Shown here: positions 29,528-47,612 of the stretch, piece by piece
Position numbering within the stretch: the stretch's first letter is position 1
How the letters are laid out: every line of letters begins with the position of its first letter
NCBI GenBank assembly: GCA_015490175.1
Contig: WFYJ01000009.1
Coordinates: 1 to 64,000 of the forward strand
Reading direction: 5' to 3'
DNA from: Saprospiraceae bacterium
GTDB taxonomy: Bacteria; Bacteroidota; Bacteroidia; Chitinophagales; Saprospiraceae
Length of the DNA: 64,000 nt
Program-made: the position numbers and the translations under genes
Notes under the pieces: generated by a model
What the model was told of the DNA's origin: nothing
Seen by the model: only the letters and a program-made list of their open reading frames with translations
Database searches by the model: none

Positions 29528-29575
29528 GTTTTTGCTTGGGAAGTGCGCAGAAAATGTAAAAATGATTGAAAAAAT

Positions 29576-29609
29576 TTTGCTTTTTTATCAAAAAGTGATA
29601 TACTTTTGC
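29576..29609 (+). promoter_or_regulatory. canonical Bacteroidota promoter of the ArsC-like gene
   Basis: TTTTGC at 29576-29581 (-33 region) and TACTTTTGC at 29601-29609 (-7 box, TAnnTTTG) are about 20 bp apart. The ATG is at 29641, giving a leader of about 25 nt. It lies in AT-rich DNA just after the gld terminator. Confidence 0.75.
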
Positions 29610-29640
29610 ACATCTGATCCGATTGCCAAAATTTTTGTCT

Positions 29641-30027
29641 ATGAAAACTCACCCTCGGGAAATTCTGATCTATTACAACCCCGAATCCTCCAGCGACCGC
29701 AAGACAGTGGCTTTCGCCAAAAGTATTTCGCGACACGTACGGGCCTATGCCTACAGCCAGGCACCCTCTTCGCCCACGAGCTGGCAACAGATCCTCAAGG
29801 CGGTGGGGCTGCATCCCAAGGAGCTGCTGAACAAGGCGCACCCCTATTACCAGGCGCACATCCGCGGCAGAGACTTCGACGAAGAATGCTGGGTCAAGAT
29901 CATCATGAGGAACCCCGATTTGCTCAAAGCGCCTATTGCCATTCGTGGCAGCAGAGCCATCCAGTGTTGCGCTCCAACGGATATCTTCAAGCTGACCGAC
30001 GCCCCTGCAGAAGTATCGCTCGAGTAG
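29641..30027 (+). CDS. ArsC/Spx-like thioredoxin-fold protein lacking the catalytic cysteine
   Basis: The 128-residue protein has the ArsC fold pattern: N-terminal strand ILIYYNPESSSDRKT, helix, LLNKAHPYY, and the C-terminal APIAIRGSRAIQCC region where ArsC has RPI. The usual CxxxR/CxxS active-site cysteine of the N-terminal loop is replaced by serine (ESSSDR), so arsenate reduction is unlikely. Two adjacent Cys occur near residue 113. Spx-like regulation or a structural role is possible. A canonical promoter precedes it. The TVAFAKS segment is encoded by a GGCTTTCGCCAAA variant motif (29709-29721). Confidence 0.7.
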   Translation: MKTHPREILIYYNPESSSDRKTVAFAKSISRHVRAYAYSQAPSSPTSWQQILKAVGLHPKELLNKAHPYYQAHIRGRDFDEECWVKIIMRNPDLLKAPIAIRGSRAIQCCAPTDIFKLTDAPAEVSLE

Positions 30028-30187
30028 CGAAGCAGGGGCCGATGATCGGCTGAAGTCCAGGCAAGCCATCTGTTTCCATCCCTCAGGCTTTTTTGAGCAG
30101 TTTCAACCTCGCTTCACCTTCCCGAAGCGGGGTTGATTTTTTGCCGAAAGGCGTCACAAATGGGCACACAAGGGGCAAGTGCCGTAT

Positions 30188-30196
30188 TACCTTTGC
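30188..30196 (+). promoter_or_regulatory. -7 box TACCTTTGC of purN
   Basis: A perfect TAnnTTTG box lies 43 bp before the purN ATG. A copy of TTTGCCGAAAGGC lies upstream at 30140-30152. Confidence 0.65.
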
Positions 30197-30238
30197 TGAG
30201 TGTCGTATTTTCTCGCTCCGCAAACCGAACAGCGTATC

Positions 30239-30832
30239 ATGCCCCATCGCCTTGCCATTTTCGCTTCCGGATCGGGTACCAATGCCGAGCAAATCATGGA
30301 ATACTTCTCCGGCCGGGAAGATGTGTCGGTGGCCCTGGTGGTGAGCAACAAAGCCCGGGCCGGCGTACTCGACCGCGCCCGGCGGTTCGGGCTGCCCACG
30401 CTGCTGATCGATCGGGCGATGTTTTACGAAAGTGAAGATATTTTGAAAATACTGAATCAGTACGGCATTGATTTTGTGGTGTTGGCGGGGTTTCTATGGC
30501 TCGTGCCGGAATATCTGGTGAAGGCATTCAAAGGCAGGATGGTCAATATCCATCCGGCACTGTTGCCGCACTATGGGGGGAAGGGCATGTATGGCATGCA
30601 CGTGCATCGGGCTGTCGTGGCACATGGCGAGCGCGAAACGGGCATTACCATTCACTACGTCAACGAGCGCTACGACGAAGGCGACATCGTCTTTCAGGCC
30701 CGTTGCCCGGTCGATCCCCACGATACGCCCGAAGATGTGGCCCGCAAGGTGCATGCACTCGAGTACGCCCATTATCCCCGTGTAATCGACGAATTGCTGC
30801 AACGCTTGCCCGAGGGCTTGCGTAACTCATAA
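30239..30832 (+). CDS. purN: phosphoribosylglycinamide formyltransferase
   Basis: The 197-residue enzyme transfers the formyl group of 10-formyl-THF to GAR in purine synthesis. It has the N-terminal IFASGSGTNAE phosphate-binding loop and the catalytic region VNIHPALLPHYGGKGMYG with Asn/His. The Asp of the triad sits in NERYDEGDI. The start at 30239 (MPHRLAIF) fits the family. It is monocistronic or co-transcribed with the next gene, 53 bp downstream. Confidence 0.95.
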   Translation: MPHRLAIFASGSGTNAEQIMEYFSGREDVSVALVVSNKARAGVLDRARRFGLPTLLIDRAMFYESEDILKILNQYGIDFVVLAGFLWLVPEYLVKAFKGRMVNIHPALLPHYGGKGMYGMHVHRAVVAHGERETGITIHYVNERYDEGDIVFQARCPVDPHDTPEDVARKVHALEYAHYPRVIDELLQRLPEGLRNS

Positions 30833-30885
30833 TTCATACGAAAGGGCATGGAGCATTGTCCAAAATCCGGTTAAAATCAAACATC

Positions 30886-33048: not shown

Positions 33049-33066
33049 ATTTCACCCACCAGAGAA

Positions 33067-33533
33067 GGTACTCGACGCAATCCGGTTTCTTGAGATGGAG
33101 CGAGGGAGCGACAGAGTGAGGGAGCGACAGAGAGACAGAGCGACACAGTGACAGAGTGATGGAGAGAGGAGTGAAGAGTGCCGATTTGACCGATTGAGGC
33201 CACTGAAAAAAGCCGAAAAATTATTCAGTTACACAGAGCACCCACTGAGAATACACTGAGTTTCAAAGAGTTAAAAAACTGCGCTCAACTGCGTCCATCT
33301 GCGCTTGAAAGCTGCGGTTCGTTCAAATTGATGCGCAAAAAGATTTGATTTACAATGATTTGATCAAAATCATCAGTCATAAGACCATAAAGTTCAGGCT
33401 TCTTCATGACACCTTTTTTCAGCGTGCTCAACCGATTGCACCGATTTGACCGATTGCACCGATTACACCGAATTACGCCATTTCGGCAATCGGATGTTCC
33501 CGAACCACTTTGATGCGAGCATAAACTTCCCCT
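33067..33533. repeat. interspersed mosaic repeat element E, both termini present
   Basis: The left end is GGTACTCGACGCAATCCGGT, then TTCTTGAGATGGAG. The right end, reverse-complemented, is TATGCTCGCATCAAAGTGGT, then TCGGGAA. Inside are a long GGAGCGACAGAGTGA tract, the 'GGCCACTGAAAAAAGCC' and TTACACAGAG modules shared with element B, the 'AACTGCGTCCATCTGCG' module and two blocks of ACCGATTTGACCGATTGCACC. The element separates two convergent genes and fills the 514-bp gap. Confidence 0.8.
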
Positions 33534-33562
33534 GAGGTTTTTCCGCGATGTCGTGGTGTCGA

Positions 33563-35773
33563 TCAGGTCGCTACGGCATCAGCACTTTCACCGGTTTGGG
33601 CAGCAGCTTTTTCCCGGGTGCCATTTGCGGAAGCGGGTGCCGATTGCGGCTTGGGCAGCGTGAAATAGAAGGTCGTTCCTTTTCCGGGCTCCGACTCGAG
33701 CCAGATTTTTCCGCCCAGTTTCAGAATGATTTTCTTGCACATGGCCAAGCCGATGCCCGTGCCCTGGTATTCCTCGCGCGTGTGCAGCCGCTTGAACATC
33801 TCGAAGACCTGATCGTGGAATTCGGGATCGATGCCGATGCCGTTGTCGCGCACGCGGAACAGGTAGTGGTCGCCCTTGTCTTCGGTGCTGATCTGGACCA
33901 GGGGGATGCGGCTCTCGTTGTACTTGATGCCGTTGCTGACGAAATTTTGCAGAAGCTGGAGCATGTACACCGAGTTGGCGTACACCACGGGCAGAAGGGA
34001 AGCTTCCACTACTGCGTGTTTCTGCGACATCTCTTCTTTGAGGTTGCGCAGTGCGAGGACGAGGGTGTCGTTGAGATCAACCTCGGTCATTTCCACCTCA
34101 TCCTGGTTGACCCGTGAAAATTCGAGCACGTCGAGGATGAGCTGATGCATCTGCCTGGCGCTGTCGGTGGCAAACTTGAGATACTCGAGCAGTTGCGGGT
34201 CGGGGTTTTGGCGCACCTTGCGCTCGATGAGGTTCAGGAAGCTGATGATGTTGCGCAGGGGCGACTTGAGGTCGTGCGAGGCGATGTAGGCAAAGCGCTC
34301 CAGCTCCATGTTCGACTGTTCGAGCTGGCGGTTGGAGGCGGCCAGCTCTTCGTTGTAGCGCTGCAGCTCGGCCGTGCGCTTCTGCACTTCTTTTTCCAGC
34401 AGTTCGTTGTAGGCCTTTTTGCGCTTGAAGGCATTGTACAGGATGACGATGCCGGCCAGCACCAGCAGGATGAGGATGATGAGCGCGTAGTTCTGCAGCC
34501 GCTGATTCTGGATGATGATCCGGTTTTGCAGCTCACGGGCGCGCAGCAGCTTGACCTCTTCCTCTTTTTTCTCGGTCTGGTAGCGGATCTGGTTGTGGAT
34601 GAGCTGCCGGGTGCGCTCTTCGTCGTACAGTTCGTCTTTGATGGCTACCAGCTTTTTCAGCCATTGATAGGCTTCTTCGTTGCGACCGTTTTCGTCGTGA
34701 AATTCGAAGAGCGACTCGTAAATGTCTTTCAACAGTGCTTTGCTGCCCGCCTTTTGGGCGGCTTCGAGAGCCTGGGTGTAATAGCGAAGGGCTTCCTGCT
34801 CGTTGCACAACTGGCTGTAGATGTTGCCCATTTCGCGGGCGGCACGGGCAATGATGCGCAGGTTGTTGAGTTCCTCGCCGAGGAGCAGGGCGCCCGTGTA
34901 ATAGCGCAGGGCTTCGGTGGGGTTGTTCATGTGCTCATACGCGTACCCGATATTGACGTGAATTTCGGCGAGGTGCACCCGATCGTTGGCTGCCTGTGCC
35001 AGGTAGAGCGCTTCGGTACACGACTGCAGGCTGCGCGTGTAGTCGCCGAGCCGCCCCCAGGTTTGGCCGATGGCGTTGAGGGCGTACATCCGCCCGCGGA
35101 TGTCGTCCAGCTCGTCGTAGAGCGCAAGGGCACGATTGAAGTAGGCAAGCGCCTGTCGGTAGTCTTTTTGTTCGAAAAAAAGCTGGCCCAGCTCGTAGTT
35201 GACGTCGGCGATGCCCCTTTTGTTGCCCAGTTTTTCGTAGATGGTAAGCTGCCGCAAAAAGGCCTGTTGCGCTTTTTCGTAGTCGTTGAGGGCCATGAAG
35301 ATCTTGCCCTCGTCGCCATACAGCGCCGCCCGATCGGCAATGGTGGTAAAGCTCGTGTCTATGGCCTTGGCCTCGTTGAGGTAGTCCATGGCCGCTTTGA
35401 GGTCGTATTTCAACTCGGCATATACGCGGGCCAGGCGCTCCAGCGCCAGAAACTCGCGGCGTTTGTCCTTGTAGTTCTGCGCGAGGATGAGGGCCAGGTT
35501 GGCATTGTTGATGGCCTTTTCAGGATCGTTTCCTTCCTCGATATGGACTTCGGCCAATTGCAGGTAGATGTCCATGCGGGCCGTGTCGTGCCGGGCCAGC
35601 TTCAACTTGGTGAGCAGGTCGAAAATGCGCGTGTTGCTCTGTGCCTGTGTACCAGCGGCACTCAGGAAGCAGAGCAGGGCAATGGCCAGGCTTGCCCGCA
35701 GGAAAACAGGCACATTACTGCCACGGCAGATCGTTTTCGTCGTTTTGGGTATGTCCATGTCGGTGAAGCGCAA
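33563..35773 (-). CDS. TPR-sensor histidine kinase
   Basis: The 736-residue kinase has a signal peptide or N-terminal membrane segment (LRASLAIALLCFLSAAG) and a periplasmic array of seven or more TPRs (about 60-390). One transmembrane helix (YALIILILLVLAGIVILY) leads to a coiled-coil linker, a HisKA domain with the phosphoacceptor in FAYIASHDLKSPLRNI (about residue 503), and a HATPase domain with N, G1 and G2 boxes (NFVSNGIKYNES, DNGIGI, GTGIGLAMCKKI). No response regulator lies nearby, so it is an orphan by location. The TPR part presumably reads a protein or peptide signal in the periplasm. An ATG at 35758 is an alternative start. Confidence 0.93.
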   Translation of the reverse strand: MRFTDMDIPKTTKTICRGSNVPVFLRASLAIALLCFLSAAGTQAQSNTRIFDLLTKLKLARHDTARMDIYLQLAEVHIEEGNDPEKAINNANLALILAQNYKDKRREFLALERLARVYAELKYDLKAAMDYLNEAKAIDTSFTTIADRAALYGDEGKIFMALNDYEKAQQAFLRQLTIYEKLGNKRGIADVNYELGQLFFEQKDYRQALAYFNRALALYDELDDIRGRMYALNAIGQTWGRLGDYTRSLQSCTEALYLAQAANDRVHLAEIHVNIGYAYEHMNNPTEALRYYTGALLLGEELNNLRIIARAAREMGNIYSQLCNEQEALRYYTQALEAAQKAGSKALLKDIYESLFEFHDENGRNEEAYQWLKKLVAIKDELYDEERTRQLIHNQIRYQTEKKEEEVKLLRARELQNRIIIQNQRLQNYALIILILLVLAGIVILYNAFKRKKAYNELLEKEVQKRTAELQRYNEELAASNRQLEQSNMELERFAYIASHDLKSPLRNIISFLNLIERKVRQNPDPQLLEYLKFATDSARQMHQLILDVLEFSRVNQDEVEMTEVDLNDTLVLALRNLKEEMSQKHAVVEASLLPVVYANSVYMLQLLQNFVSNGIKYNESRIPLVQISTEDKGDHYLFRVRDNGIGIDPEFHDQVFEMFKRLHTREEYQGTGIGLAMCKKIILKLGGKIWLESEPGKGTTFYFTLPKPQSAPASANGTREKAAAQTGESADAVAT

Positions 35774-36008
35774 TTGCGGGGGATTTTTTTACAACGCTGC
35801 AATACCGTGTCCTGGTTTATCGCCACGAGCAGGCAACCAACGCCCCTTTGCACGGAGTGTAGCAAAAGAAGTGCCTTAAATAGCAGGTTTCGATTTACCG
35901 ACAGACAAATCATGAAAATCCGGTACAGACGCATGGCCTGCGTCTGCGGAGAGACGCGAGTATAGAATATAGCAATCGAGGAGATTGGGCCGGTAGGTCA
36001 GCCCTGCA
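35774..36008. other. intergenic region with a short hairpin
   Basis: These 235 bp contain one GACGCA/TGCGTC hairpin (35928-35944) and, just after it, CGAGTATA, which resembles the outer end of the interspersed elements. No ORF or terminator with a T-run is seen. Confidence 0.4.
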
Positions 36009-36452
36009 TCAGGCCTTGGGGTCGCGTTTCACCTTGCGCAGGCTGACTTTGCCATGGGGAGTGGAGGGCCGCAGCGGCAGACCGGTGCGTTTCTGCCAAT
36101 AGCCGTTGAGGGTCTGTTCCCAGATGCTGCGTTCGAACAGCAGTTGATAGTCGCGCGGGAAGTTGAAGAGCTCTCCGGCCAGGTAGCCAGTGGGCGGTTC
36201 GCGTTCGTAGAGCGTGATGGACCAGTCGCGATGCACCTCGCCAAAGACCTGCATTTCCGTTACGCGACCGTCGGGCTCGTACAACCAGCTTTTGCCTTCG
36301 AGGATGCGGCCGCGCTGTCTGAGGTGCAGCTCGAGTTTGTAGGTGATGCCATTTTTCACCAGCTCGCCTTCCCAGAAGCCGGCCAGGCGGCCCTGGGCAT
36401 GCAGCGTGCACGACACCACGGCCATGAAGCCGAAAAGCAGCAATCGTCTCAT
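36009..36452 (-). CDS. small exported protein of unknown function
   Basis: The 147-residue product has a signal peptide (RLLLFGFMAVVSCTLHAQ); a Cys in the hydrophobic part is not in a good lipobox. The mature chain is rich in beta strands with FWEGELVKNGITYKLELHL and SWLYEPDGRVTEM, which suggests a small lipocalin-like barrel. I do not recognise a family. The C-terminus is strongly basic (KVSLRKVKRDPKA). It stands alone between the kinase gene and repeat element G. Confidence 0.6.
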   Translation of the reverse strand: MRRLLLFGFMAVVSCTLHAQGRLAGFWEGELVKNGITYKLELHLRQRGRILEGKSWLYEPDGRVTEMQVFGEVHRDWSITLYEREPPTGYLAGELFNFPRDYQLLFERSIWEQTLNGYWQKRTGLPLRPSTPHGKVSLRKVKRDPKA

Positions 36453-36573
36453 TGCAAGGTCGTTTTGGAGTTTTGCTGAAAATAGGGCTTTCGCCCTGAA
36501 CGGACAAACTACAGGATGCCGCGGGCATCCGGATTGGTGTGTCGGCCGGGCAGGAAATGCGCACGGCCGAGTG

Positions 36574-36865
36574 TTTGCCTACGCAATGCGGTTTCTTGGG
36601 ATGGCGTGAGGAGTGAGGAGAGATGGAGTGACCGAGTGAGACGGAGAGAGGGAGTGATTGTACAAACTGCGTCAGCGCTGCGTTTTCTGCGGCTGAAAGC
36701 TGCGGTTTTTTGCTGAGGAACCGAGGAATCGATGGTTTTGCAAAAACCTGATAGTCAACAAGAAAAACTTTAAACTTTAAACTCTGAACCCTAAACCCTA
36801 AACCATAAACACTACACCCTCAACCAATGCCACAGGGTTTCCCAAACCACCTTGAGGCGGGTATG
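36574..36865. repeat. interspersed mosaic repeat element G, both termini present
   Basis: The left end reads TTTGCCTACGCAATGCGGTT, then TCTTGGGATGG. The right end, reverse-complemented, reads CATACCCGCCTCAAGGTGGT, then TTGGGAA. It stops at the base next to the moeA stop codon (36866). Inside are a GAGGAGAGATGGAGTGA tract, the CTGCGTCAGCGCTGCG module, GAGGAACCGAGGAATCGA, and a TTTAAACTTTAAACTC / CCCTAAACCCTAAACC tract that resembles plant-type telomere repeats. Confidence 0.8.
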
Positions 36866-38065
36866 TCAATAGCGGTACCTATGCAGCGGGAAGGCTTCTC
36901 CCGCCGGGAATTCGGTGCGGCCGCGCGGCAGCTCGAGGAAAGCATCGGCTTCGGTGAGGTTGGCCAGATCGCCGGAGCCGTGGCCGGGTCGGGGCCAGGC
37001 CTGCAGGGTGCCTTCGTCATTCATCTTCAGCTTGACGGGCAGGAAGAGCGTGAGATCGGGCTTGAAAGAGAAGTCTTCGGCCAGTACGGCGCGTTCATTG
37101 CGGAAAGGGGCGAGCCCCCAGCACGCGCGCAGCCAGGGCAACACATAGCGATGCATGCACATGAACGAAGAGACGGGATTTCCCGGAAGGGCGAAAATGG
37201 TGGTGTCGTGTGGGCCGATGCCAAACCAGAAGGGTTTGCCGGGCCGCTGGGTGACGCGGTGGAAGCGCTGTTGAGCGCCCAGCATCTCCAGCACGGGTGG
37301 GATGAAGTCGAACTTGCCTTTCGAGACGGCACCACTCAGGATAAGCACGTCGTAGCGCTCCATGGCCACGTCGAGGTATTTGCGGACCTCTTCGCGCTGG
37401 TCGCGCAGGTGCAGCATGGCGGCTTCGATGCCGAGGTGCCTGAGCTCGCCCGCCAGAGCGTGCACGTTCGATTTGCGGATCTGGTGGGGCAGGGGCGTTT
37501 CGGCCACGTCCACCAGCTCATCGCCCGTGCTGATGATCACTACGCGCGGGAAGTTGGCCACTTGCACCTGTGTTTTGCCGATGGTGGCGGCTACGGCGAT
37601 CTCGGCCGGCGTGATGATGCGTGGCGGCTGTACGAGGACGTCACCTGCTGCGCGGTCGGTGCCTTTGCGGTGCACGTTCTGCCAGGGCTTCACCTCTTCG
37701 AGGTGGACGTGCGCCTGCTGATCCACGATCTCGAGGTCTTCATAGCGCACTACGGCATCGGCGCCTTCGGGCAAAACGGCACCCGTCATCACTTCGATGC
37801 ATTGCCCTGCCGATTCGATGCGCATCGGAGGCTGGCCGGCTGCCTGAGTGCCTGCCACGTGAAAGGCTCGTGTACCGGCAGCAAAGTCGGCGCTGCGCAG
37901 GGCAATGCCATCCATGGCCACGCGGTCGAAGGGCGGGAAAGGACGGTCGGCCACGAGGGGCTCGGTGAGCACGCGGCCCAGCGCCCAGCCGAGCGCGACG
38001 TGTTCGTTGCCAAAGGAACGGGTATGCGACAGGACGATGCGCGTGGCTTCTTCAACGGTAGTCAT
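36866..38065 (-). CDS. moeA: molybdopterin molybdenumtransferase MoeA
   Basis: The 399-residue enzyme inserts molybdate into adenylylated molybdopterin. Motifs seen are PFPPFDRVAMDGIA, TGAVLPEGADAVVRYED, the MoCF-binding core ISTGDELV, LILSGAVSKGKFDF (normally SGGVSxGxxD) and ALPGNPVSSF. Gly-to-Ala in SGAVS is a mild deviation. It is flanked by repeat elements on both sides (G ends at its stop codon, H starts 31 bp before its ATG) and has no other moa/mob gene nearby. Confidence 0.94.
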   Translation of the reverse strand: MTTVEEATRIVLSHTRSFGNEHVALGWALGRVLTEPLVADRPFPPFDRVAMDGIALRSADFAAGTRAFHVAGTQAAGQPPMRIESAGQCIEVMTGAVLPEGADAVVRYEDLEIVDQQAHVHLEEVKPWQNVHRKGTDRAAGDVLVQPPRIITPAEIAVAATIGKTQVQVANFPRVVIISTGDELVDVAETPLPHQIRKSNVHALAGELRHLGIEAAMLHLRDQREEVRKYLDVAMERYDVLILSGAVSKGKFDFIPPVLEMLGAQQRFHRVTQRPGKPFWFGIGPHDTTIFALPGNPVSSFMCMHRYVLPWLRACWGLAPFRNERAVLAEDFSFKPDLTLFLPVKLKMNDEGTLQAWPRPGHGSGDLANLTEADAFLELPRGRTEFPAGEAFPLHRYRY

Positions 38066-38095
38066 GGCAGCTCGTTTTCGTGGGCCGGCAAGATA

Positions 38096-38314
38096 TATAC
38101 CCTACGCAATCCGGTTCGGGAATTTTTGACGATAGACGATTTTCCGAGATGGAGCAACGGAGTGAGAGCGCGACGGAGTGACGAAGTGAGTGAGGAGAGA
38201 GGAGTGAGGAGTGAAGAGTGCATACAAGTTTGACCGATTTGACCGATTGCACCGATTTGGCCGATTACACCACATGCGCAACAACATTTCCCGAACCACT
38301 TTGATGCGGGTATA
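38096..38314. repeat. interspersed mosaic repeat element H, shortest copy with both termini
   Basis: The left end is TATACCCTACGCAATCCGGT, then TCGGGAATTTTTGACGAT. The right end, reverse-complemented, is TATACCCGCATCAAAGTGGT, then TCGGGAAAT. The two share TATACCC, 10 variable bases and GGTTCGGGAA. Inside there is only a GGAGTGAGAGCGCGACGGAG tract and an ACCGATTTGACCGATTGCACC tract. At 219 bp it is the clearest example of the family. Confidence 0.85.
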
Positions 38315-38335
38315 TGGCGGAGAGAGTCGGTCGGT

Positions 38336-39244
38336 TCATTTGATCACGTGTACGACCATCCACACGTCTTCCCGAGGGCGGTGGCGGGCATCGACGGGCA
38401 GGGACGCAATGCGGTCGAGCACCTCGAAACCTTCCACCACGCGGCCAAAGACCGTGTAATCGCGGTCGAGTTGGGGGGTGCCACCCACTTCCAGGTATTT
38501 TTTGCGCAAAGCGGAGGGATAGCGAAAGCCCTTCATGGCTTCCACCCTGTCGAGCATCTCTTGCGTCACGGGACGTCCCTGCACGATGTAGAACTGCGAG
38601 CCGGAAGAGCGCTTTTCGGGGTTCACCTCGTCGGGCAGGCGGGCGGCAGCCAGCGCCCCGCGCAGGTGGACGAGCGTGTCCACAAATTCGGCAGGAAGGG
38701 TATATCCCGGTCCGCCCATGCCGAGCGGTTTGCCGGCAGGCGCGCCCTTCGAATCGGGATCGCCGCCCTGGATAACGAAGCCGCGAATGACGCGATGGAA
38801 AAGCAGACTGTCGTAAAACCCTTGCTCGGCCAGCAGCAGAAAATTGTCGCGGTGCAGCGGCGTGGCATCGAACAGTTCGACGAGCATGGATCCGTAGGGC
38901 GTCTCGATCTCTGCCAGACATTGCTCGGGCGGATGCACTTCGATGGTCTGCCGGCGGGTGCGCAGGCGCTTGCCTTTCCATGCGCGCAACTCGACGGTGT
39001 AGGTGCCCGAGAGGCGATAGCGGTGCGCCGGCTCGGCCAGGTCGCTTTGGTGGCCGTCGCCGAAATCCCACTCTATGCGGTCGGCCTTACGGGTGTGGTT
39101 GTCGAAAACGACCTCGAGCGGTGCCCTGCCTGTGGTGGGCGTAGCGGTGAATTCAACGACGGGGCCACAGCTCACCAGGGTGAGCAGTGCCAGGGCCGCC
39201 CATGTCGAAAGCGATGTTTTTGCTTTGAAAAAAAGATGGTCCAT
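38336..39244 (-). CDS. cyclophilin-type peptidyl-prolyl isomerase lipoprotein with PKD domain
   Basis: The 302-residue lipoprotein (lipobox LTLVSC at about residue 26) has a PKD-like Ig domain (about 30-105; RIEWDFGDGHQSD, SGTYTVELRAW). A cyclophilin domain follows (FHRVIRGFVIQGGDPDS, SSGSQFYIVQG, DYTVFGRVVEGFEVLDRIA). It probably assists folding of exported proteins at the outer membrane or periplasm. It follows a second cyclophilin gene on the same strand. A GTG at 39271 overlapping the upstream stop is an alternative start that adds nine residues. Confidence 0.9.
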   Translation of the reverse strand: MDHLFFKAKTSLSTWAALALLTLVSCGPVVEFTATPTTGRAPLEVVFDNHTRKADRIEWDFGDGHQSDLAEPAHRYRLSGTYTVELRAWKGKRLRTRRQTIEVHPPEQCLAEIETPYGSMLVELFDATPLHRDNFLLLAEQGFYDSLLFHRVIRGFVIQGGDPDSKGAPAGKPLGMGGPGYTLPAEFVDTLVHLRGALAAARLPDEVNPEKRSSGSQFYIVQGRPVTQEMLDRVEAMKGFRYPSALRKKYLEVGGTPQLDRDYTVFGRVVEGFEVLDRIASLPVDARHRPREDVWMVVHVIK

Positions 39245-39267
39245 ACCAGAAGTTTCTTCGGCCAGCC

Positions 39268-39930
39268 TCACTTGATGCGCACGCGTTTGATGCGGATGTC
39301 TTGCAACGGGCGGTTGGCCTTGTCGCGAGGCGCGCTGGCGATGCGATCCACCACGTCCATGCCGCGCACCACCTCACCGAAGACGGTGTAGTTGCCATCG
39401 AGGAAGGGGGCGCCGCCTTTTTCCCTGTACAGTTGGCGTTGGGTGGCGTTGTATTTGATGTTGTTTTGCTGCTCGATGGCATCGAGCTCGGCATCGCTCC
39501 ACTTGCGCCCCACCACGATGTAGAACTGCGAGCCCGAAGAGCGCTTCTCGGGATTGATCTGGTCGGGCAGGCGGGCGGCGGCCAGGGCGCCGCGGATGTG
39601 GGGCGCTCCGATTTCGGGTTCGAGCGTGTAGCCCGGTCCGCCCTGGCCCAGCACCTGCCCCGGCCGGGCGTACTTCGAGTCGGGGTCGCCGCCCTGGATC
39701 ATGAACTCGGGCATGACGCGGTGGAACAGCAGGCTGTCGTAGAAGCCTTCCCTGGCCAGCTTGATGAAGTTGTCGCGATGTCTGGGCGTAGTGTTGTAGA
39801 GGATGACTTCGATGTCGCCGTAGTCTGTTTCGATCACGGCATGGGTGTAGGGATCTTTTTTGCAGCCGGCAATGCCTGCAAGCAGCAGGGGCAGCAGGAT
39901 CGTCATCAGGATGTGGAAAGTGCGTTTCAT
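39268..39930 (-). CDS. cyclophilin-type peptidyl-prolyl isomerase lipoprotein
   Basis: The 220-residue protein has a lipobox LAGIAGC near residue 25 and a single cyclophilin domain (DYGDIEVILYNTTPRHRDNF, FHRVMPEFMIQGGDPDSK, SSGSQFYIVVG, NYTVFGEVVRGMDVVDRIA). It catalyses cis/trans proline isomerisation in the periplasm. It is nearly collinear with the cyclophilin domain of its neighbour (identical NPEKRSSGSQFYIV), so the pair looks like a tandem duplication in which one copy gained a PKD domain. Confidence 0.93.
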   Translation of the reverse strand: MKRTFHILMTILLPLLLAGIAGCKKDPYTHAVIETDYGDIEVILYNTTPRHRDNFIKLAREGFYDSLLFHRVMPEFMIQGGDPDSKYARPGQVLGQGGPGYTLEPEIGAPHIRGALAAARLPDQINPEKRSSGSQFYIVVGRKWSDAELDAIEQQNNIKYNATQRQLYREKGGAPFLDGNYTVFGEVVRGMDVVDRIASAPRDKANRPLQDIRIKRVRIK

Positions 39931-39964
39931 TGCAGCAGGTGTTTTGAGCTGTTGGCGGGTGTGA

Positions 39965-39980
39965 TTTGCCGAAAGGCAAA
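39965..39980. repeat. 16-bp palindrome TTTGCCGAAAGGCAAA (family copy)
   Basis: A full copy of the recurrent palindrome lies between the cyclophilin gene (start 39930) and the stop codon of the next upstream gene (39983). Confidence 0.85.
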
Positions 39981-39982
39981 AG

Positions 39983-40381
39983 TTACTCTTCCTCTTTGAG
40001 GCGTCGGCGCTCGGCCTCCAGATCGCGAAAGTACTGAATGGCTTTTTCTTTGAGCAGGCGCTCCTGAGCTTCGACGCCAGGAGTTTCAATGGGGCGCAGT
40101 GCCCGGTAGTGGGGCCAGCCGTCCTCGTCGCGCCCTTCGAAGGCGTAATAGCCGTCGTAGCTGAGCAGTCGGCACACGGCGATGTGCATCAGGTCCTGCT
40201 TTTCTTCTTTTGAAAAAGGATGTTTGACGAATCCGAGTTCCTGCACGCCGATGAGGAAGAGGACGGCATCGAGATCGGGCAGCGTCTCTTTGCCGAAAGT
40301 GTCTTTGATGAAGTGGCGCAGGCGCAGCCATTCGAATTCGAGTTCCCAGTCTTCCACGATTGCCTTGGCTTTGGTGATCAA
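39983..40381 (-). CDS. small conserved-looking protein, unknown function
   Basis: The 132-residue cytoplasmic protein has a helical, charged sequence (AIVEDWELEFEWLRLRHFIKD, LDAVLFLIGVQELG, FSKEEKQDLMHIAVCRLLSYDGYY). No ATG precedes the conserved-looking region. TTG at 40381 (LITKAKAIVED) is the best start, and ATT at 40384 is next. The open frame continues upstream into the neighbouring gene, but a terminator at 40395-40430 makes that unlikely. I do not recognise the family. Confidence 0.6.
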   Translation of the reverse strand: MITKAKAIVEDWELEFEWLRLRHFIKDTFGKETLPDLDAVLFLIGVQELGFVKHPFSKEEKQDLMHIAVCRLLSYDGYYAFEGRDEDGWPHYRALRPIETPGVEAQERLLKEKAIQYFRDLEAERRRLKEEE

Positions 40382-40394
40382 AATGCGTTTCGGA

Positions 40395-40430
40395 CAAAAA
40401 ACAAGGGGCCACACCCTGTGGTGCAGCCCC
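40395..40430 (-). terminator. rho-independent terminator of the Zn-peptidase gene
   Basis: On the minus strand, GGGGC and GCCCC close a stem extended by CACCAC/GTGTG, followed by TTGTTTTTT. It lies 20 bp past the stop of the YugP-like gene and just before the TTG start of the next gene. Confidence 0.85.
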
Positions 40431-40449
40431 TCGTGTTGAAAAATCGGTT

Positions 40450-41139
40450 TCAATCTCTGCTGTTGAGGAAGTAGAGCACCAAGTACAGCAGTTGCGCCAC
40501 GGCGGCGAGGGCAGCAGCTACGTAGGTCATGGCGGCCCACCACAGGGCGTCTTTGGCGGCTTCGTATTCGGGACCGCGGGCTACGCCGCTGTGCTCGAGC
40601 CACACCAGCGCCCGCTTGCTTGCGTCGAACTCGACGGGCAGCGTGATGAGGCTGAACAGGGCCGTCACCAGAAAGGCACCGATGGCGATGAGCAGCACGA
40701 AGGTGTTGTTGAACGCCCCGAACGCCACGAAGGCAAACATGAACAGATACTGCTGGATGCTGGCCGAGATTTGCACGAGCGGCACCAGTGCCGATCGCAT
40801 CTGCAGGGCGGCATAGGCTTCGGCGTGCTGTACGGCGTGGCCGCATTCGTGGGCAGCCACGGCGGCCGAGGCCACGCTGCGCCCGCGGTACACCTCAGGG
40901 CTCAGACTGACCGTCTTGGTCTGCGGGTTGTAGTGGTCGGTGAGCATGCCCTGTCCTTCCACGATCTGCACATCGGTAATGCCGTAGTACGACAACATGC
41001 GTTCGGCCACCTCGCGCCCGCTCAGCCCCTGCAGGTTGGGCATGCGGCTGTAAAGCGCAAACTTGCGCTTGAGCTGGCCGCTGAGCAGCATGCCGATAAA
41101 GGTGAAAATGATGCTGATGACGAAAAGTCCCGCGTACAT
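40450..41139 (-). CDS. membrane zinc metallopeptidase, YugP family
   Basis: The 229-residue protein has an N-terminal transmembrane helix, the zinc motif AAHECGHAVQH at about residue 100, and further hydrophobic segments in the C-terminal half (LFMFAFVAFGAF, VLLIAIGAFLVTALFSL, LAAVAQLLYLVLYFL). This is the pattern of the Zn_peptidase_2 (YugP) family, whose substrate is not established. It is 59 bp downstream of serS on the same strand. Confidence 0.93.
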   Translation of the reverse strand: MYAGLFVISIIFTFIGMLLSGQLKRKFALYSRMPNLQGLSGREVAERMLSYYGITDVQIVEGQGMLTDHYNPQTKTVSLSPEVYRGRSVASAAVAAHECGHAVQHAEAYAALQMRSALVPLVQISASIQQYLFMFAFVAFGAFNNTFVLLIAIGAFLVTALFSLITLPVEFDASKRALVWLEHSGVARGPEYEAAKDALWWAAMTYVAAALAAVAQLLYLVLYFLNSRD

Positions 41140-41198
41140 ATGCTTGGTGGTTTTTCTGAAACAAAGCAAATCCTGAACGCGTATCAGGCGCCACCGGT

Positions 41199-42488
41199 TC
41201 AACGGTTCGTCGAGATGCGCTCGAATCCGGTATAGGGCACCAGCACCGAGGGGATGCGAATGCCCTCGGGCGTCTGGTTGTTTTCGAGCAGGGCGGCCAC
41301 GATGCGGGCCAGTGCGAGGGCGCTGCCATTGAGCGTATGGGCCAGCCGCGTCTTTTTGTCTTTGCCGCGGAAGCGGAGCTTCATGCGGTTGCTCTGGTAG
41401 GTCTCGAAGTTCGACACCGAGCTGACCTCGAGCCAGCGCTGCTGCGCCGCCGACCACACCTCGAAGTCGTAGGTGAGGGCCGAGGTGAAGCCCAGGTCGC
41501 CCCCGCACAGGCGTACGATGCGGTAGGGCAGCTCCAGCTTGTCGAGCAGGCCCGAGACGTGGGCCAGCATCTCGTCGAGTACCTCGTACGAGTGGTCGGG
41601 ATGGGCGATCTGTACGATCTCGACCTTGTCGAACTGGTGTACGCGGTTGAGGCCGCGCACGTGGGCGCCGTAGGAACCCGCCTCGCGACGAAAACAGGGC
41701 GTGTAGCCCGCCATCTTGATGGGGAGCTGCTCCTCGGGGATGATCTCGCCGCGGTAGATGTTGGTGATGGGCACTTCGGCCGTGGGAATGAGATAGAGGT
41801 CGTCTTTTTCGACATGGTACATCTGCCCCTCCTTGTCGGGCAGTTGGCCCGTGCCGCGCGCCGTGTCGGCATTGACGAGCAAGGGCGGCTGGATCTCTTC
41901 GTAGCCCGCGGCGCGCGCTTCGTCGAGGAAGAAGTTGATCAGGGCGCGCTCGAGGCGGGCACCCTGCCCCCGGAAGACGGGAAAGCCGGCTCCTGTGAGC
42001 CTGGCGCCGAGCTCCAGGTCGAAAATGCCGTACTGCTGCGCCAGCTCCCAGTGGGGCCTGGCTCCTTGAGGCAGCTCGGGCAATGGGCCCGTCCAGTCTT
42101 TGCAGATTTCGTTATCGGCATCGGTGCTGCCTGCCGGCACAGAGGGGTGTGGCACGTTGGGCACCGACAGCAGCAGCTCTTCGAGACGCGCTTCCACCTC
42201 GGCTTTGCGGGCCTGCAGCTCCTTGATTTCCTCCTTGAGGGTGCTGACCTGCGCTTTGCGGGCTTCGGCCTCTTCGCGTTTGCCCTGTCGGAAAAGCTGA
42301 CCGATTTCTTTGGAAATCCTGTTGCTTTCGGCCAGCATCCCGTCGAGGCGCGTCTGTAGCTGACGGCGCTCTTCGTCGAGGGCCAGGATGCGATCGACGA
42401 TGGCCAGGTCTTCTTCTTTCCAGTTGCGCTTGCGCAGGCCGGCTTTTACTTTTTCCGGCTCGCGGCGTATGAGGTTGAGTTCAAGCAT
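41199..42488 (-). CDS. serS: seryl-tRNA synthetase
   Basis: The 429-residue class II synthetase charges tRNA-Ser. The N-terminal coiled-coil arm that contacts the tRNA covers about residues 30-105 (EERRQLQTRLDGMLAESNRI, KEEIKELQARKAEVEARLEE). Motif 2 is visible as CFRREAGSYG and motif 3 as LNGSALALARIVAALLE. TAEVPITNIYRGEI is a serine-binding segment. The ATG at 42488 (MLELNLIRREPEKV) is standard for the family. Confidence 0.97.
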   Translation of the reverse strand: MLELNLIRREPEKVKAGLRKRNWKEEDLAIVDRILALDEERRQLQTRLDGMLAESNRISKEIGQLFRQGKREEAEARKAQVSTLKEEIKELQARKAEVEARLEELLLSVPNVPHPSVPAGSTDADNEICKDWTGPLPELPQGARPHWELAQQYGIFDLELGARLTGAGFPVFRGQGARLERALINFFLDEARAAGYEEIQPPLLVNADTARGTGQLPDKEGQMYHVEKDDLYLIPTAEVPITNIYRGEIIPEEQLPIKMAGYTPCFRREAGSYGAHVRGLNRVHQFDKVEIVQIAHPDHSYEVLDEMLAHVSGLLDKLELPYRIVRLCGGDLGFTSALTYDFEVWSAAQQRWLEVSSVSNFETYQSNRMKLRFRGKDKKTRLAHTLNGSALALARIVAALLENNQTPEGIRIPSVLVPYTGFERISTNR

Positions 42489-42610
42489 GGTTGTAGTTGG
42501 TTTCTGTGGGAAAACAGGTTTTGTGCAAACGATGCAAAGAAAAGCCTTTTTGATGGTAAAAAACCGAACGGCCAACCGCTTCGGAAACGCCCGCCCGAGG
42601 GCCCCACGCC

Positions 42611-44086
42611 TCAGTTGGTGCGCCAGAAGTAGGGCGTGAACAGCACGAGGATGGTGAACAGCTCGAGCCGCCCCAGCAGCATGATGATCGACAGCACCAC
42701 TTTTGCGGAAGCGGACAGGTGGGCAAAGTTGTCCACCGGCCCCACGGAGCCGATGCCGGGGCCCACGTTGCCCAGGCTGGTCGCCACGGCCCCTACCGTC
42801 GTCTCGAAGTCGTAGCCCATGCTGGCGATGATCAGCGAGCCGAGCACGAAGGTGATCAGGTACAGCAGCAGGAAGATGATGACGTGGGTCATGATGCGGG
42901 GCGCCACCACGCGGTCGTCGATCTTGAGCGGGACGATGGCCTTGGGATGGATGAGGCGCTTGAACTCGAGGTACGAGTTTTTGAAAAACACCAGATGACG
43001 AATGATCTTGATGCCGCCGGCAGTGGAGCCGGCGCTGGCCCCGATGAACAGCAGCACGAAGAACAGCATCGTCAGGCCGGGCGTCCAGGTGGTGTAGTCG
43101 GTAGTGACATAGCCAGTGGTGGTCATCAGCGACACGATGTGGAACAGCGCGGCGCGGAAGGTGGCTTCGAGCGAGGCATGCCCTTCGTTGTCGGGCAGGC
43201 CGCCCGTGCTGAGCCACGCCACCATCGTGACGATGATGCCGAGCAGCAGCGTCAGGCTCAGGTAGGTGCGGTATTCCTCATTGCGCCACATGCGGCGGAA
43301 GCGGCCCGTCACGCCGAAATACAGCACCGTGTAGTTGGTGCCGGCCAGAAACATGAAGAAGATGATGGTGTACTGTATTCCCGGATCGGGAAAGGCGGCG
43401 ATGGAGGCGTTGCGCGTCGAAAAGCCGCCCGTAGCCATGGTGGTAAAGGCGTGATTGACGGCTTCGTAGAGCGACATGCCCTGCCCCCAGAGCAGCAGCG
43501 CCTCGAGCGCCGTCAGTCCCACGTAGATAAGCCACAGCCGCTTGGCCGTCTCGCGGATGCGCGGATGTACCTTGTCGGAGGTGGGGCCGGGCGCTTCGGC
43601 AGCGAACAGCTCGATGCCGCCAATGCCCAGGATGGGCAGGATGGCTACCGTCAGCACGATGATGCCCATGCCGCCGATCCACTGGGTGAGGCTGCGCCAG
43701 TACAGGATGCCCCGAGGCAGTGCCTCGATGTCGGTCAGAATGGTGGCTCCCGTGGTCGTCATGCCCGAGACCGTCTCGAAGAACGCCTCGGCCACCGAAG
43801 GAATGGCGCCGCTCCACAGGTAGGGCAGCATGCCGAAAGTGACCATGGTGAACCACCCCAGCGCTACGATCAGGTAGCCCTCGCGCTTGCGGATGGCATC
43901 GCCTTTCGGCAAACGCACGAGCAACAACAGGCCACCACTGGCCAGGCAGGTCACTGCCGACCACAGGAGCGGCCAGGCATCATCGCCGCCATGGTGCCAG
44001 GCCACAGGCACACTCGTGCCCATCAGCACGCCAATCAGCACCAACAGAAAACCCAGCACCTTGACGACGGGACGGTAATGGATCAT
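42611..44086 (-). CDS. trkH: TrkH/KtrB-type potassium uptake transmembrane subunit
   Basis: The 491-residue membrane protein has the four M1-P-M2 repeats of the TrkH family. Selectivity-filter loops are visible as [31 protein letters not shown] and [10 protein letters not shown]. It carries out K+ (or Na+/K+) uptake in the inner membrane. No trkA/ktrA gene for the cytosolic gating subunit is adjacent. The palindromic motif copy at 43901-43913 encodes RLPKGD in a loop. Confidence 0.95.
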
Positions 44087-44181
44087 GGCCGTATTTTCGC
44101 TGCGTTTTTTGGAAGTGCGCAAAGTTAATGGCCTGCAGGCGATTGCAAAGGCGTGTCTTTGCGCAAGCAAAACCACAGACC

Positions 44182-44634
44182 ATGAGAGTACTCGTACAGC
44201 GCGTGTCGGAAGCCTCGGTGACTATCGGCGGGCAGGTGAAAGGCGCCATAGGGCCGGGCTTGCTCGTTTTTCTCGGCATCGAAACGCAGGACACCGAAGC
44301 CGATGTGGATTGGCTGGTGCGCAAGGTGAGCCAGTTGCGCATCTTCAGCGATGCAGAGGGCAAGATGAACCTGTCGGTAAAAGACATCGATGGGGAGGCG
44401 CTCGTCATCAGCCAGTTCACCCTCATGGCCAGCACCAAAAAAGGCAACCGACCCAGCTATATCCGCGCCGCCCGCCCCGAACAGGCCATCCCCCTCTACG
44501 AGACTTTCGTCAAAAGGCTGTCGGAAGCTCTGGGCAAGCCCGTGGCCACGGGCGAATTTGGCGCCGACATGAAGGTGCGTCTGTGCAACGACGGCCCCGT
44601 CACCATCTGGATCGACTCGAAAAATCCCGAATGA
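44182..44634 (+). CDS. dtd: D-aminoacyl-tRNA deacylase
   Basis: The 150-residue enzyme frees tRNAs mischarged with D-amino acids or glycine. The DTD signatures are SQFTLMAST (catalytic Thr region, normally SQFTLxAxT) and the cross-subunit loop [11 protein letters not shown] (normally NxGPVT). The start at 44182 ([13 protein letters not shown]) is standard. The next gene begins one base after its stop codon. Confidence 0.97.
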
Positions 44635-44635
44635 C

Positions 44636-44977
44636 ATGACCCTTGCCGAAGCCCAGCGAAAAGTGGACGAGTGGATTCGCACCATCGGCGTGCGCTACTT
44701 CGACGAGCTGACCAACACGGTCATCCTGATGGAAGAGGTGGGCGAGCTGGCCCGACTCATGGCGCGCCTCTACGGCGAGCAGTCGTTCAAGCGGCCCGAA
44801 GAGGCCGAGGCTGCACCTGCCCGCCTGGCCGACGAAATGGCCGACGTGCTGTTCGTGCTCATCTGTCTGGCCAACCAGACCGGAATTGATCTCGAAGAGG
44901 CCTTGCAGCGCAATCTCGAAAAGAAAACCCGCCGCGATGCCGACCGGCATGCCGCCAACCCCAAGTTGAAGAAGTGA
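44636..44977 (+). CDS. MazG-like nucleotide pyrophosphohydrolase
   Basis: The 113-residue single-domain protein has the all-alpha NTP-PPase metal site: EEVGELARLMAR (ExxE) and LADEMADVLFVLICLA (ExxD). It would hydrolyse a (d)NTP to the monophosphate, as house-cleaning. It is coupled to dtd with one base between the genes; both deal with aberrant building blocks. Confidence 0.92.
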   Translation: MTLAEAQRKVDEWIRTIGVRYFDELTNTVILMEEVGELARLMARLYGEQSFKRPEEAEAAPARLADEMADVLFVLICLANQTGIDLEEALQRNLEKKTRRDADRHAANPKLKK

Positions 44978-45017
44978 GCCTGCGCAAAAGGGCGGGCCTG
45001 TCTTTGCTCAGTGAAAT

Positions 45018-45455
45018 GTGATTACTCCGCCTTCGACCTCTGAAGGTTGCGATTGCAACGGGTGACGATCGTCAATGGTCGCCAGACGATTTTTTGAGAT
45101 GGAGAGACGAGAGATGGAGTGAGGGAGTGACCGACCACGCAAACTGCCTCAGCGCTGCACCTTCTCCGGCTGAAAGATCATTCAGTTACACAGAGAGCAC
45201 TGGGCACGCACTGATTTTCACAGAGTTGTAAACTCTCAACCCTGCACGCTCAACCCTCAACAACAGGTCAAAAACTGCGCTCAAACTGCGTGAATCTGCG
45301 GCCGAAGGCTGCGGTTCAATGGATGAGGAACCGAGCAATCGAGGAACCAAGGATTTGACAAAAACCTGGTAGTCAATAAGAAAAACTTTAAACTCTAAAC
45401 TCTACATCCTCAACCAATTGCAACGGGATGCCCAAACCACTTTGATTTGAGTATA
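45018..45455. repeat. interspersed mosaic repeat element I (left end degraded)
   Basis: The right end, reverse-complemented, begins TATACTCAAATCAAAGTGGT, then TTGGGCATCCCGTTGCAA. The left end keeps only GACGATCGTCAATGG, as in element B; the start coordinate is approximate. Inside, in order, are a GAGATGGAGTGAGGGAGTGA tract, CTGCCTCAGCGCTGC, TTACACAGAG, AACTGCGTGAATCTGCGG, GAGGAACCGAGCAATCGA, and an AACTTTAAACTCTAAACTC tract. It is the copy with the most complete set of modules. Confidence 0.75.
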
Positions 45456-45499
45456 ACACGGAGAGAAACGACGCTCAACGCTCAAGCCGAGTACAGATA

Positions 45500-45650
45500 T
45501 TGTAAAAAATTGGCATGTGTTTTGCCTTGAAAAAGGCGTACGCAAGCATTCACCCCCTTTACGCAGGCGTTTTATACATGCCCTTTTGGGCAAACACTCA
45601 CTCCGGGTCCCGAAGCACGCCCCCCCTTTGTTGCTTCGGGCCTTTTTTTA
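45500..45650 (+). ncRNA. candidate small RNA ending in a terminator
   Basis: In the 190-bp stretch between element I and the MscS-like gene, the plus strand folds into GCCTT-GAAA-AAGGC (45524-45537), TGCCC-TTTT-GGGCA (45579-45592) and a final terminator. No plus-strand protein gene is close upstream: the MazG-like gene ends 620 bp away, beyond the repeat. A weak TGTTTTGC box near 45517 could be the promoter. It could instead be the far terminator of the dtd operon. Confidence 0.4.
45606..45649 (+). terminator. plus-strand rho-independent terminator
   Basis: CCCGAAGCA (45609-45617) pairs with TGCTTCGGG (45632-45640), extended by GG/CC, and is followed by seven T (45643-45649). The T-run overlaps the stop codon of the convergent MscS-like gene. 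Confidence 0.85.
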
Positions 45651-47402
45651 TGCCTGGCTCGTGTCGCCGCGCTGGCCCTGTGCCGCATAGCGTTTCCGAT
45701 AAGCTTCAAGGAAGCGTTGCATGCGCGCCTCGAGTTCGTCGGGATCCGTTGTGTATTCGGGGCTCAGGGAGCCGGCGCCCGGCAGTTGTTCCACGAGAAT
45801 GGTTTGGGTGGGGAAGGCGTATTGCACGCCCAACTCGGCCGCCAGGCGCAGGAACGACATCAGCAGCTCTTCCTTTACCTGCAACTCGTCGGCATACGAC
45901 CGCACTTCGATCTGTGCGCGCACCATGATGTTGAGCGAAAAGTCGGCAAACTCAATGAAGTGCACGTAGTACCCTTCCTTGCGCGTGCGGGGATGGTCGA
46001 GGATGATGCGGCGGAGGCCCTCGATGAATTTTTCCAGCAACTCTGGCGGCGTGTCGTAGGTGACGCCCAGCTTGATATTGAGCAGCCGAAAAACGCGGAC
46101 GCCGAGATTGCGCACCGAGGCATTGACCAGGTTGCCGTTGGGTATGGTGACCACCGAGCTGTCGATTTGCAGGATGCGGGTGGAGCGAAAGCCCACTTCG
46201 AGGATGGTGCCTTCGTATCCTTCGGCCACCACGTAGTCGCCCACCTGAAAAGGCTGGTCTATCAGAATCATCAGCGAGCCGATGAGATTCTTGACCGTGT
46301 CCTGTGCCGCCAGCGCAATGGCCAGACCGCCGATCGACACACCGGCAATGAGGGCCGTGACGTCCACGTGCAGCACGCGCAACACCTGTATGATTCCGGC
46401 CAGTACGATCAGCACCTGTCCGCCTTTTTGCAAAATGGGCAAGAGCTGATCGTCGAGCCGACTTTCGGTGCGGGCGGCCGCCTGCCTGAGGTAGTAAACC
46501 ACCAGATCCCACACCCGCAGCACGAGCAGCAGGGCCGTCAGCGTGATGGCCAGCCGCAATACCAGCATCGCCACGCGCGAAAAACTGATGGGCAGCAGCA
46601 GCGCCGGCAGCAACGCGCGGAAAAGGAGCAGGAGGAGCAGGGCACTGAGTACGGTGGACAACCGCAGAATCAGTCGGGGGTCGGTTTCGGCCACGCGCGA
46701 CAGCATGCGGGCAAGGCCCCGCAACACGGGCCGGAGGGCCTGCCGCAATACCTGATGCACCAGCCAGGTGACGAAGATGAGCAGGCCGAGCCCTACGTAT
46801 TGCCACAGGGCCAGCCCCAGCACCTTGCGTTGCCCCCAGCGCGGCATCAGCCTGACGAACAGGTCGGCACCCAGCGGAAAGACCTCCCTGTGCAGCCTCG
46901 GAATGGCTTTGACCGTGGCCTCGCTGTAGTACCACTTGCCGTTTATCTTTTCCACATACACTTCGGGCAGCTCGTCGGGAAAGGGAGCATAACGCGGCCG
47001 CCCCAGCGTGTCGGTGTAGTCGGGGGTGCGCGGAAGGGACTGTACCGGCACGTAGAGCCCCAACCCGTCGTAAATCTGCTTCAACCAGATGGCCAGCTCC
47101 ACGGCCCGGGCGCTGTCGGCTAAGCCGTAGAGCGTGCGTGCGGCCAGCTCGGGCCGGTAGTTTTCCGGTTGCAGGTAGTAGAGGTGGGAGTAGATCGTGT
47201 TATGAGGGGTGGCCAGCGTGACTTCAGGGCCTTGCTCCTCGCTCTGGGCCGACAGCACACCGCCTGCCAGAAGAAAGGCAATAATCCACAGGTATGCAAA
47301 AAACGAAGTAGTTTGAGATGCGAAGCATCCCGAACTACCCGCACGCACAGCAGCGCGTAAACGCTGCAGCTTTTCCCAAACCGCTTTGCAGTAAGCACGC
47401 AT
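45648..47402 (-). CDS. MscS-family mechanosensitive ion channel, long form
   Basis: The 584-residue protein has an exported N-terminal domain (about 35-180) after a hydrophobic signal segment (YLWIIAFLLAGGVLSAQ). Four or five transmembrane helices follow, then the MscS pore and beta domain (GGLAIALAAQDTVKNLIGSLMI is broken here by the pore turn; FQVGDYVVAEGYEGTILEVG; VTIPNGNLVNASVRN) and the C-terminal alpha/beta domain. It relieves osmotic pressure. ATGs at 47435 and 47552 are alternatives; 47402 is closest to the hydrophobic start. It is divergent from a glucosaminidase-like gene. Confidence 0.9.
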   Translation of the reverse strand: MRAYCKAVWEKLQRLRAAVRAGSSGCFASQTTSFFAYLWIIAFLLAGGVLSAQSEEQGPEVTLATPHNTIYSHLYYLQPENYRPELAARTLYGLADSARAVELAIWLKQIYDGLGLYVPVQSLPRTPDYTDTLGRPRYAPFPDELPEVYVEKINGKWYYSEATVKAIPRLHREVFPLGADLFVRLMPRWGQRKVLGLALWQYVGLGLLIFVTWLVHQVLRQALRPVLRGLARMLSRVAETDPRLILRLSTVLSALLLLLLFRALLPALLLPISFSRVAMLVLRLAITLTALLLVLRVWDLVVYYLRQAAARTESRLDDQLLPILQKGGQVLIVLAGIIQVLRVLHVDVTALIAGVSIGGLAIALAAQDTVKNLIGSLMILIDQPFQVGDYVVAEGYEGTILEVGFRSTRILQIDSSVVTIPNGNLVNASVRNLGVRVFRLLNIKLGVTYDTPPELLEKFIEGLRRIILDHPRTRKEGYYVHFIEFADFSLNIMVRAQIEVRSYADELQVKEELLMSFLRLAAELGVQYAFPTQTILVEQLPGAGSLSPEYTTDPDELEARMQRFLEAYRKRYAAQGQRGDTSQA

Positions 47403-47612
47403 GCGGTGCAAAATGGATCCGGCTCCGGGCTTCATGGCTTTTTTGAGGCAAAAATATGCCGGGAGCAATTGGCGTGGGAGCCATTTTTCTCGAGGCCGGA
47501 ATTGCCCGAATGCCCTGCTGGCCGTCGTCCATCGTCCGTTGATCGTCCTCAAGCGCAGAGGCGCCCGCGCGCAAATCTCAGTGAACCCTTGTTTGTTTGA
47601 AACATTTTGTTT

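Follow-up and report, generated by a model that had tools for sequence, protein, structure and literature searches.

A conserved non-coding block on the plus strand (about 45512–45649) of the 64,000-nucleotide stretch of Saprospiraceae DNA analysed here, hereafter called the window, has the predicted architecture of a small RNA (sRNA) with two C-rich loops, one of which is the loop of an intrinsic terminator. The explanation that we favour, tentatively and at somewhat under an even chance, is that this block encodes a trans-acting sRNA that would function independently of Hfq. An sRNA candidate had been proposed for this region in a first-pass annotation. Its observation is partly confirmed and its interpretation partly supported by the evidence described below, namely syntenic non-coding conservation and a two-C-loop fold shared between species, whereas the reasons that it gave itself mostly fail.

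Genomic context of the block

The window corresponds to contig C9 of the 4.14-Mb genome, in 291 contigs, of an uncultured Saprospiraceae bacterium. It was compared with G001, the sole other member of the genus among the genomes compared. The two genomes share a gene order in which dtd and mazG run toward the block from one side and mscS runs toward it from the other. In the window, dtd (44182–44634, plus strand; Pfam PF02580) precedes a gene for a mazG-like nucleotide pyrophosphohydrolase (44636–44977, plus strand; PF03819) that lies upstream of the block and is co-directional with it. This pair is syntenic in G001, with protein identities of 83% and 77%. The convergent mscS gene (45648–47411, minus strand; PF00924 and PF21082; start approximate, with the longest open reading frame extending to 47552) encodes a protein that is 76% identical to its G001 orthologue.

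The spacer between mazG and mscS is 685 nucleotides long in the window versus 195 nucleotides in G001. Within it lies Element I (44981–45470, ends approximate), a mosaic repeat of ~490 nucleotides that has relatives elsewhere in the window and that is missing from the orthologous G001 site, where the alignment has a gap. The initial description of the block as having no plus-strand gene nearby holds in the window only through this spacer repeat, since the plus-strand mazG gene ends at 44977 and its stop codon in G001 is just 53 nucleotides from the block. Several spacers of the window genome are filled with mosaic repeats (33052–33616, 36453–36868, 38066–38353, 44981–45470 and others), and the orthologous G001 spacers are far shorter (109, 123, 84 and 195 nucleotides versus 565, 416, 288 and 685 nucleotides).

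Sequence conservation between the two species

The block is kept in both genomes of the genus (2/2). BLASTN aligned window positions 45546–45648 with G001 at 86% identity (E = 7.6e-27), although the MscS proteins of the two species share only 76%. Over the whole block the two species agree at 112 of 136 ungapped columns, and over the core (about 45546–45650) at 91 of 101. A synteny alignment with G001 covering window positions 29500–47300 (~17.9 kb) was scored in 100-column windows, among which the median is 68 identical columns. The best such window in the block has 85 and ranks third among the non-overlapping windows listed from 17,898, beside coding stretches. When the best 60-column windows of 13 spacers were compared, the block reached 53 identical columns, one other spacer (30004–30244) reached 54, and the next reached 46.

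Indels of 1, 2 and 3 nucleotides between the window and G001 break the reading frames in the block, and the longest stop-closed open reading frames within it (12 amino acids in the window, 16 in G001) are unrelated. Because the block is conserved, carries frame-breaking indels and holds no long closed open reading frame, we conclude that something non-coding is under selection. The block also shows a pattern expected of bacterial intergenic sRNAs, a conserved non-coding stretch that ends in an intrinsic terminator. Stem and non-stem columns do not differ significantly in conservation (P = 0.07–0.24), which counts against a structural reading. Since no other convincing homologue was found in 398 family genomes, the comparison comprises two sequences only.

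A second non-coding block that is highly conserved in G001 lies at 30068–30143 (plus strand), between two plus-strand genes. A strong terminator closes it (stem TCAACCTCGCTTC/GAAGCGGGGTTGA, T6), its best 60-column window has 54/60 identical columns, and it is another sRNA or 3' UTR candidate.

Predicted architecture of the block

Three plus-strand hairpins, the last of them a terminator with a T7 run, had been described for this region, and all three are present. Hairpin 1 (GCCTT-GAAA-AAGGC) occupies 45524–45537, hairpin 2 (TGCCC-TTTT-GGGCA, also called hairpin B) occupies 45579–45592, and hairpin 3, at about 45605–45642, is followed by T7 at 45643–45649. The significance given to the terminator did not hold up, as by itself it is at chance level. 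Terminator-like hairpins before T6 or longer runs number 12 per strand in the window versus 7–18 in six Markov-shuffled sequences, and a consensus terminator scanner returned 2 such sites versus 3.3 expected, with hairpin 3 unlisted owing to the 8-nucleotide loop limit of the scanner. Folding of 45510–45650 gave a z-score of -2.45, with 4 of 200 shuffles equally stable, and that of a wider segment (45480–45670) gave -1.70, with 9 of 200 equally stable; the z-score for the G001 block is -2.69. Given these chance-level terminators and the modest z-score of -2.45, we rejected fold or terminator strength as evidence by itself. In such genomes, it is syntenic conservation, and not the presence of hairpins, that separates real candidates from chance terminators.

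The T-run does overlap the mscS stop codon (45648–45650, minus strand), by 2 nucleotides in the window. This overlap had been taken as a sign of selection, but it is absent in G001, where 3 nucleotides lie between the mscS stop codon and the T-run.

At the 5' side of the block, an AT-rich stretch followed by the conserved sequence TGGCATGYGTTTTGC (45498–45526, plus strand) may represent a promoter remnant or the 5' arm of the RNA. In the TGGCATGYGTTTTGC region, TGGCATG and GTTTTGC are identical in G001 with one Y difference between them, and the AT-rich part is partly identical. Hairpin 1 (plus strand) is species-specific. Only 7 of 20 ungapped columns are identical in G001 at this location, and the window form of the hairpin was rejected as a functional part of the RNA. 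Thus, the selected part of the block is not hairpin 1.

Downstream of this location, hairpin A (45540–45570, plus strand) presents C-run 1 (CCCCC, 45553–45557) on a weak stem, ACGC-AA-GC / GC-AG-GCGU. The centroid pair probability of this hairpin is about 0.6 in the window (0.54–0.61) and 0.83–0.94 in G001, where the stem around C-run 1 differs from that of the window and encloses C6. The conserved sequences around hairpin A are GCATTCACCCCC and, on the 3' side, CAGGCG..TTTTATACA. Hairpin B (plus strand) keeps its GCCC/GGGC pairs in G001, where its loop reads TATTAT instead, and is followed by a single-stranded linker, AACACTCACTCC (45593–45604, plus strand), that is identical in G001 within GGGCAAACACTCACTCC. 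The linker between hairpin B and the terminator is also given as AAACACTCACTCC / ACTCACTCC. The intrinsic terminator (45605–45649, plus strand) consists of the stem GG(U)CCCGAAGCA / TGCTTCGGGCC, an unusually large loop that includes C-run 2 (CCCCCCC, 45620–45626), and T7. Its stem is kept in G001 save for the closing A-U pair, with C6 and T6 in place of C7 and T7. Conservation of the hairpins in relatives, which the first-pass annotation had named as a check, is seen in G001 for the GCCC/GGGC pairs and the terminator stem, but not for hairpin 1.

The fold common to both species comprises a 5' hairpin whose loop holds a C-run, the GCCC/GGGC hairpin, the linker, and the terminator with its large C-run loop. 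The C-runs are C5 and C7 in the window, and C6 and C6 in G001. Their predicted mean unpaired probabilities are 0.89 (run 1) and 0.96 (run 2) in the window, and 0.97 and 1.00 in G001, and values remain at 0.79–1.00 across 7 and 6 assumed 5' ends. When the C-runs were held fixed and the remainder was shuffled, both unpaired values were attained in only 5/300 and 1/300 shuffles. By prediction, the block therefore carries C-runs in apical loops that include the terminator loop, as do members of the C-rich-loop class of sRNAs.

Distribution and comparison with known RNAs

A BLASTN search of 100 relatives yielded a strong match only in G001, with the next best at E = 0.008. A covariance model built from the block (R1) was used to search family sets of 199 and 398 genomes, and strong matches (E about 1e-40) occur in just the two genus members among the 398. 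At E ≤ 0.1, R1 matched 25 of 199 family genomes. With stricter filters, which lose weak matches, those matched at E ≤ 0.01 numbered 9 of 398, the two genus members included. Six of the seven others (all but G292) were dismissed, four because they lie inside open reading frames and two because they are intergenic matches without a C5 run. Applied in other genomes to 45 mscS loci and 28 mazG loci, R1 gave best E values of 0.044 and 0.086, respectively; of the five loci that R1 matched, the four with sequence inspected have no C5 run. The association of mazG and dtd with mscS was seen in only 1 of 18 contig loci (L090, apparently contig C34 of G001). The pattern GGGCAAACACTCACTCC has 0 matches in viral contigs, as expected because the locus is chromosomal. 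The best reading of these search results is that the sRNA candidate is probably restricted to the genus.

Assignment to a known Rfam family (6C, mmgR/suhB, Scr3202 and others) was rejected, as the block reaches the gathering score of none. Its similarities to mmgR/suhB and Scr3202 are weak and lie below threshold. The window matches RF00519 at 19.9 of 41 bits and RF02833 at 15.9 of 52 bits, and G001 matches RF02833 at 19.1 of 52 bits and RF01456 at 15.9 of 50 bits. The mmgR/suhB RNAs of Alphaproteobacteria (RF00519) resemble the block in having a UGCCC/GGGC hairpin, a single-stranded linker and a terminator in the same order. However, the window match has an E value of 0.035 for 181 bases, and RF00519 does not match the G001 block at E values up to 5. 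We treat this similarity as chance or convergence.

The nearest parallels are in design. B11/6C of Mycobacterium is described as having three stem-loops, two of them C-rich, and its terminator loop as the seed that recognizes G-tracts close to ribosome binding sites (PMC12395582). The block is likewise predicted to have three stem-loops, two of which are C-rich, including the terminator loop. It differs in belonging to another phylum, in lacking an Rfam match at threshold, and in its shorter C-runs, of 5–7 compared with 6 and 9 in B11; moreover, its targets and expression are inferred only. sX13 of Xanthomonas is a 115-nucleotide sRNA in which C-rich loops borne on stems target G-rich motifs independently of Hfq (PMC3771888). 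sX13 is experimentally proven and has three apical C-rich loops, compared with two predicted in the block, and the likeness is one of design, with no sequence relation seen. In Helicobacter pylori, RepG uses its C/U-rich terminator loop to base-pair with the G-repeat of an mRNA leader (PMC8295292). That leader G-repeat is a known target, whereas the G-tract targets of the block are putative. The intergenic sRNA GibS comes from Bacteroides thetaiotaomicron, a lineage without obvious Hfq or ProQ (PMC7366714). GibS is described as largely unstructured and as pairing through its 5' portion, in contrast with the predicted C-rich loops of the block.

Transcription and alternative explanations

No sigma-70-type promoter was found on the plus strand in 44500–47000, and a search of the whole window for perfect TA..TTTGC sites returned none near the block on this strand. 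The only site with a 5/6 match to TAnnTTTG and an upstream TTG (45442) is inside Element I, which is not conserved, and none is present in G001; no TAnnTTTG promoter with a fitting -33 TTG was found for the block. A conserved AT-rich stretch does sit just upstream of the block. Because no canonical promoter was found, the RNA is perhaps released from the mazG 3' UTR, and read-through from mazG into the block is possible. Elsewhere in the window, perfect TAnnTTTGC promoter-like sites occur at 47456 (minus strand), 44127 (minus), 29601 (plus) and 62925 (plus). Some precede probable gene starts (mscS, trkH-like) by a short distance, which fits a Bacteroidota-type -7 element.

The main rival explanation, which we consider unlikely but well worth weighing, gives the block no trans activity: it would be a conserved 3' UTR, with its intrinsic terminator, that ends and protects the mRNA of the dtd-mazG operon. 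The promoter results are consistent with this explanation, as are the location of the block on the dtd-mazG strand, its proximity to the mazG stop codon in G001, the lack of any other T6 terminator-like hairpin from mazG to 45643 in the window, and the presence of the second conserved, terminator-ending block (about 30068–30143) after another gene. However, a plain terminator needs no conserved unpaired stretches such as GCATTCACCCCC, AAACACTCACTCC and the C-run loop, and these are more conserved than most coding sequence. An sRNA derived from the 3' UTR would unite the two readings.

It is improbable, though still conceivable, that the plus-strand RNA is a cis-antisense RNA that pairs with the 3' end of mscS mRNA and controls the stability or expression of mscS. 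The block is convergent with mscS and touches it in both species, and transcription of mscS may continue across it because no minus-strand T-run was seen behind either hairpin. Any convergent 3' end, however, gives such complementarity, and this function would demand neither conservation of primary sequence nor C-runs in loops. That selection acts on a small protein, or on the DNA itself (for example a protein-binding site), is very improbable: conservation by itself does not specify RNA, and the window has a plus-strand frame that stays open from 45515 across the block, but the frame-breaking indels and the 12- and 16-amino-acid limit on closed frames led us to reject a small protein as unlikely, and the terminator at the block end is kept in both species.

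A proposed chaperone-free riboregulator with two C-rich loops

The favoured explanation, a trans-acting sRNA with C-rich loops, would have the block yield an RNA of ~110–140 nucleotides that ends at the hairpin-3 terminator. Its 5' end could arise from a non-canonical promoter in the AT-rich/TGGCATGYGTTTTGC stretch, or by cleavage of the dtd-mazG transcript to give a 3' UTR-derived sRNA. The RNA would then act in trans and free of Hfq, with its two C-rich loops pairing with G-tracts in mRNA leaders or start regions and thereby hindering translation. Bacteroidota hardly use Shine-Dalgarno sequences. Hfq (PF17209) was detected in 0 of 2 genus genomes, with 5 of 14 control genomes positive, and for this reason a trans-acting, chaperone-free C-loop sRNA is taken as most likely. 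We nevertheless keep this reading short of an even chance because transcription is inferred, no canonical promoter was found, and a partial G-tract search gave no conserved targets.

In that search, exact complements of loop 2 were found at 27 and 18 sites in the two genomes versus 14 and 9 for reversed-pattern controls, and complements of loop 1 with up to one mismatch were found at 57 and 54 sites versus 22 and 51. Conserved start-proximal targets were not found among the 15 loci per genome and seed compared. The sole pair with C-loop sites at matching places is the block itself, and the other protein matches are among long repetitive open reading frames.

Bacteroidota lack obvious Hfq and ProQ, as stated for Bacteroides (PMC7366714), which bears on how their sRNAs find targets, and a C-loop RNA in two species would represent a simple chaperone-free design. 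Among the titles listed by our search of an open-access library on Bacteroidetes or Bacteroides sRNAs, C-rich loops and Saprospiraceae small RNAs, none concerned such an RNA in Bacteroidota. It is possible, though on balance doubtful, that the block is a genus-specific, Hfq-independent Bacteroidota riboregulator with two C-loop seeds, including the terminator loop, and an independent invention of a design known from Actinobacteria, Xanthomonas and Helicobacter.

An iterated 13-mer related to hairpin 1

Hairpin 1 had also been described as the recurrent palindrome TTTGCCGAAAGGC with two added base-pairs, and the sequence matches this description literally (TTTGCC+TT+GAAA+AA+GGC). The expanded palindrome TTTGCCNNGAAANNGGC has 2 copies in the window genome and 0 in G001, and hairpin 1 may derive locally from the massively iterated 13-mer TTTGCCGAAAGGC. 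This 13-mer has 861 copies in the window genome (438 on the plus strand and 423 on the minus strand), 278 in G001, 35 in G004, and 0–3 in each of the 10 remaining genomes of the 13 searched, and its reversed pattern has 0 copies in the window genome and G001. Copies in the window include those at 251, 2682, 4882, 8052, 9112, 17733, 22754 and 39965. We take this iteration to resemble that of HIP1 or of DNA-uptake sequences.
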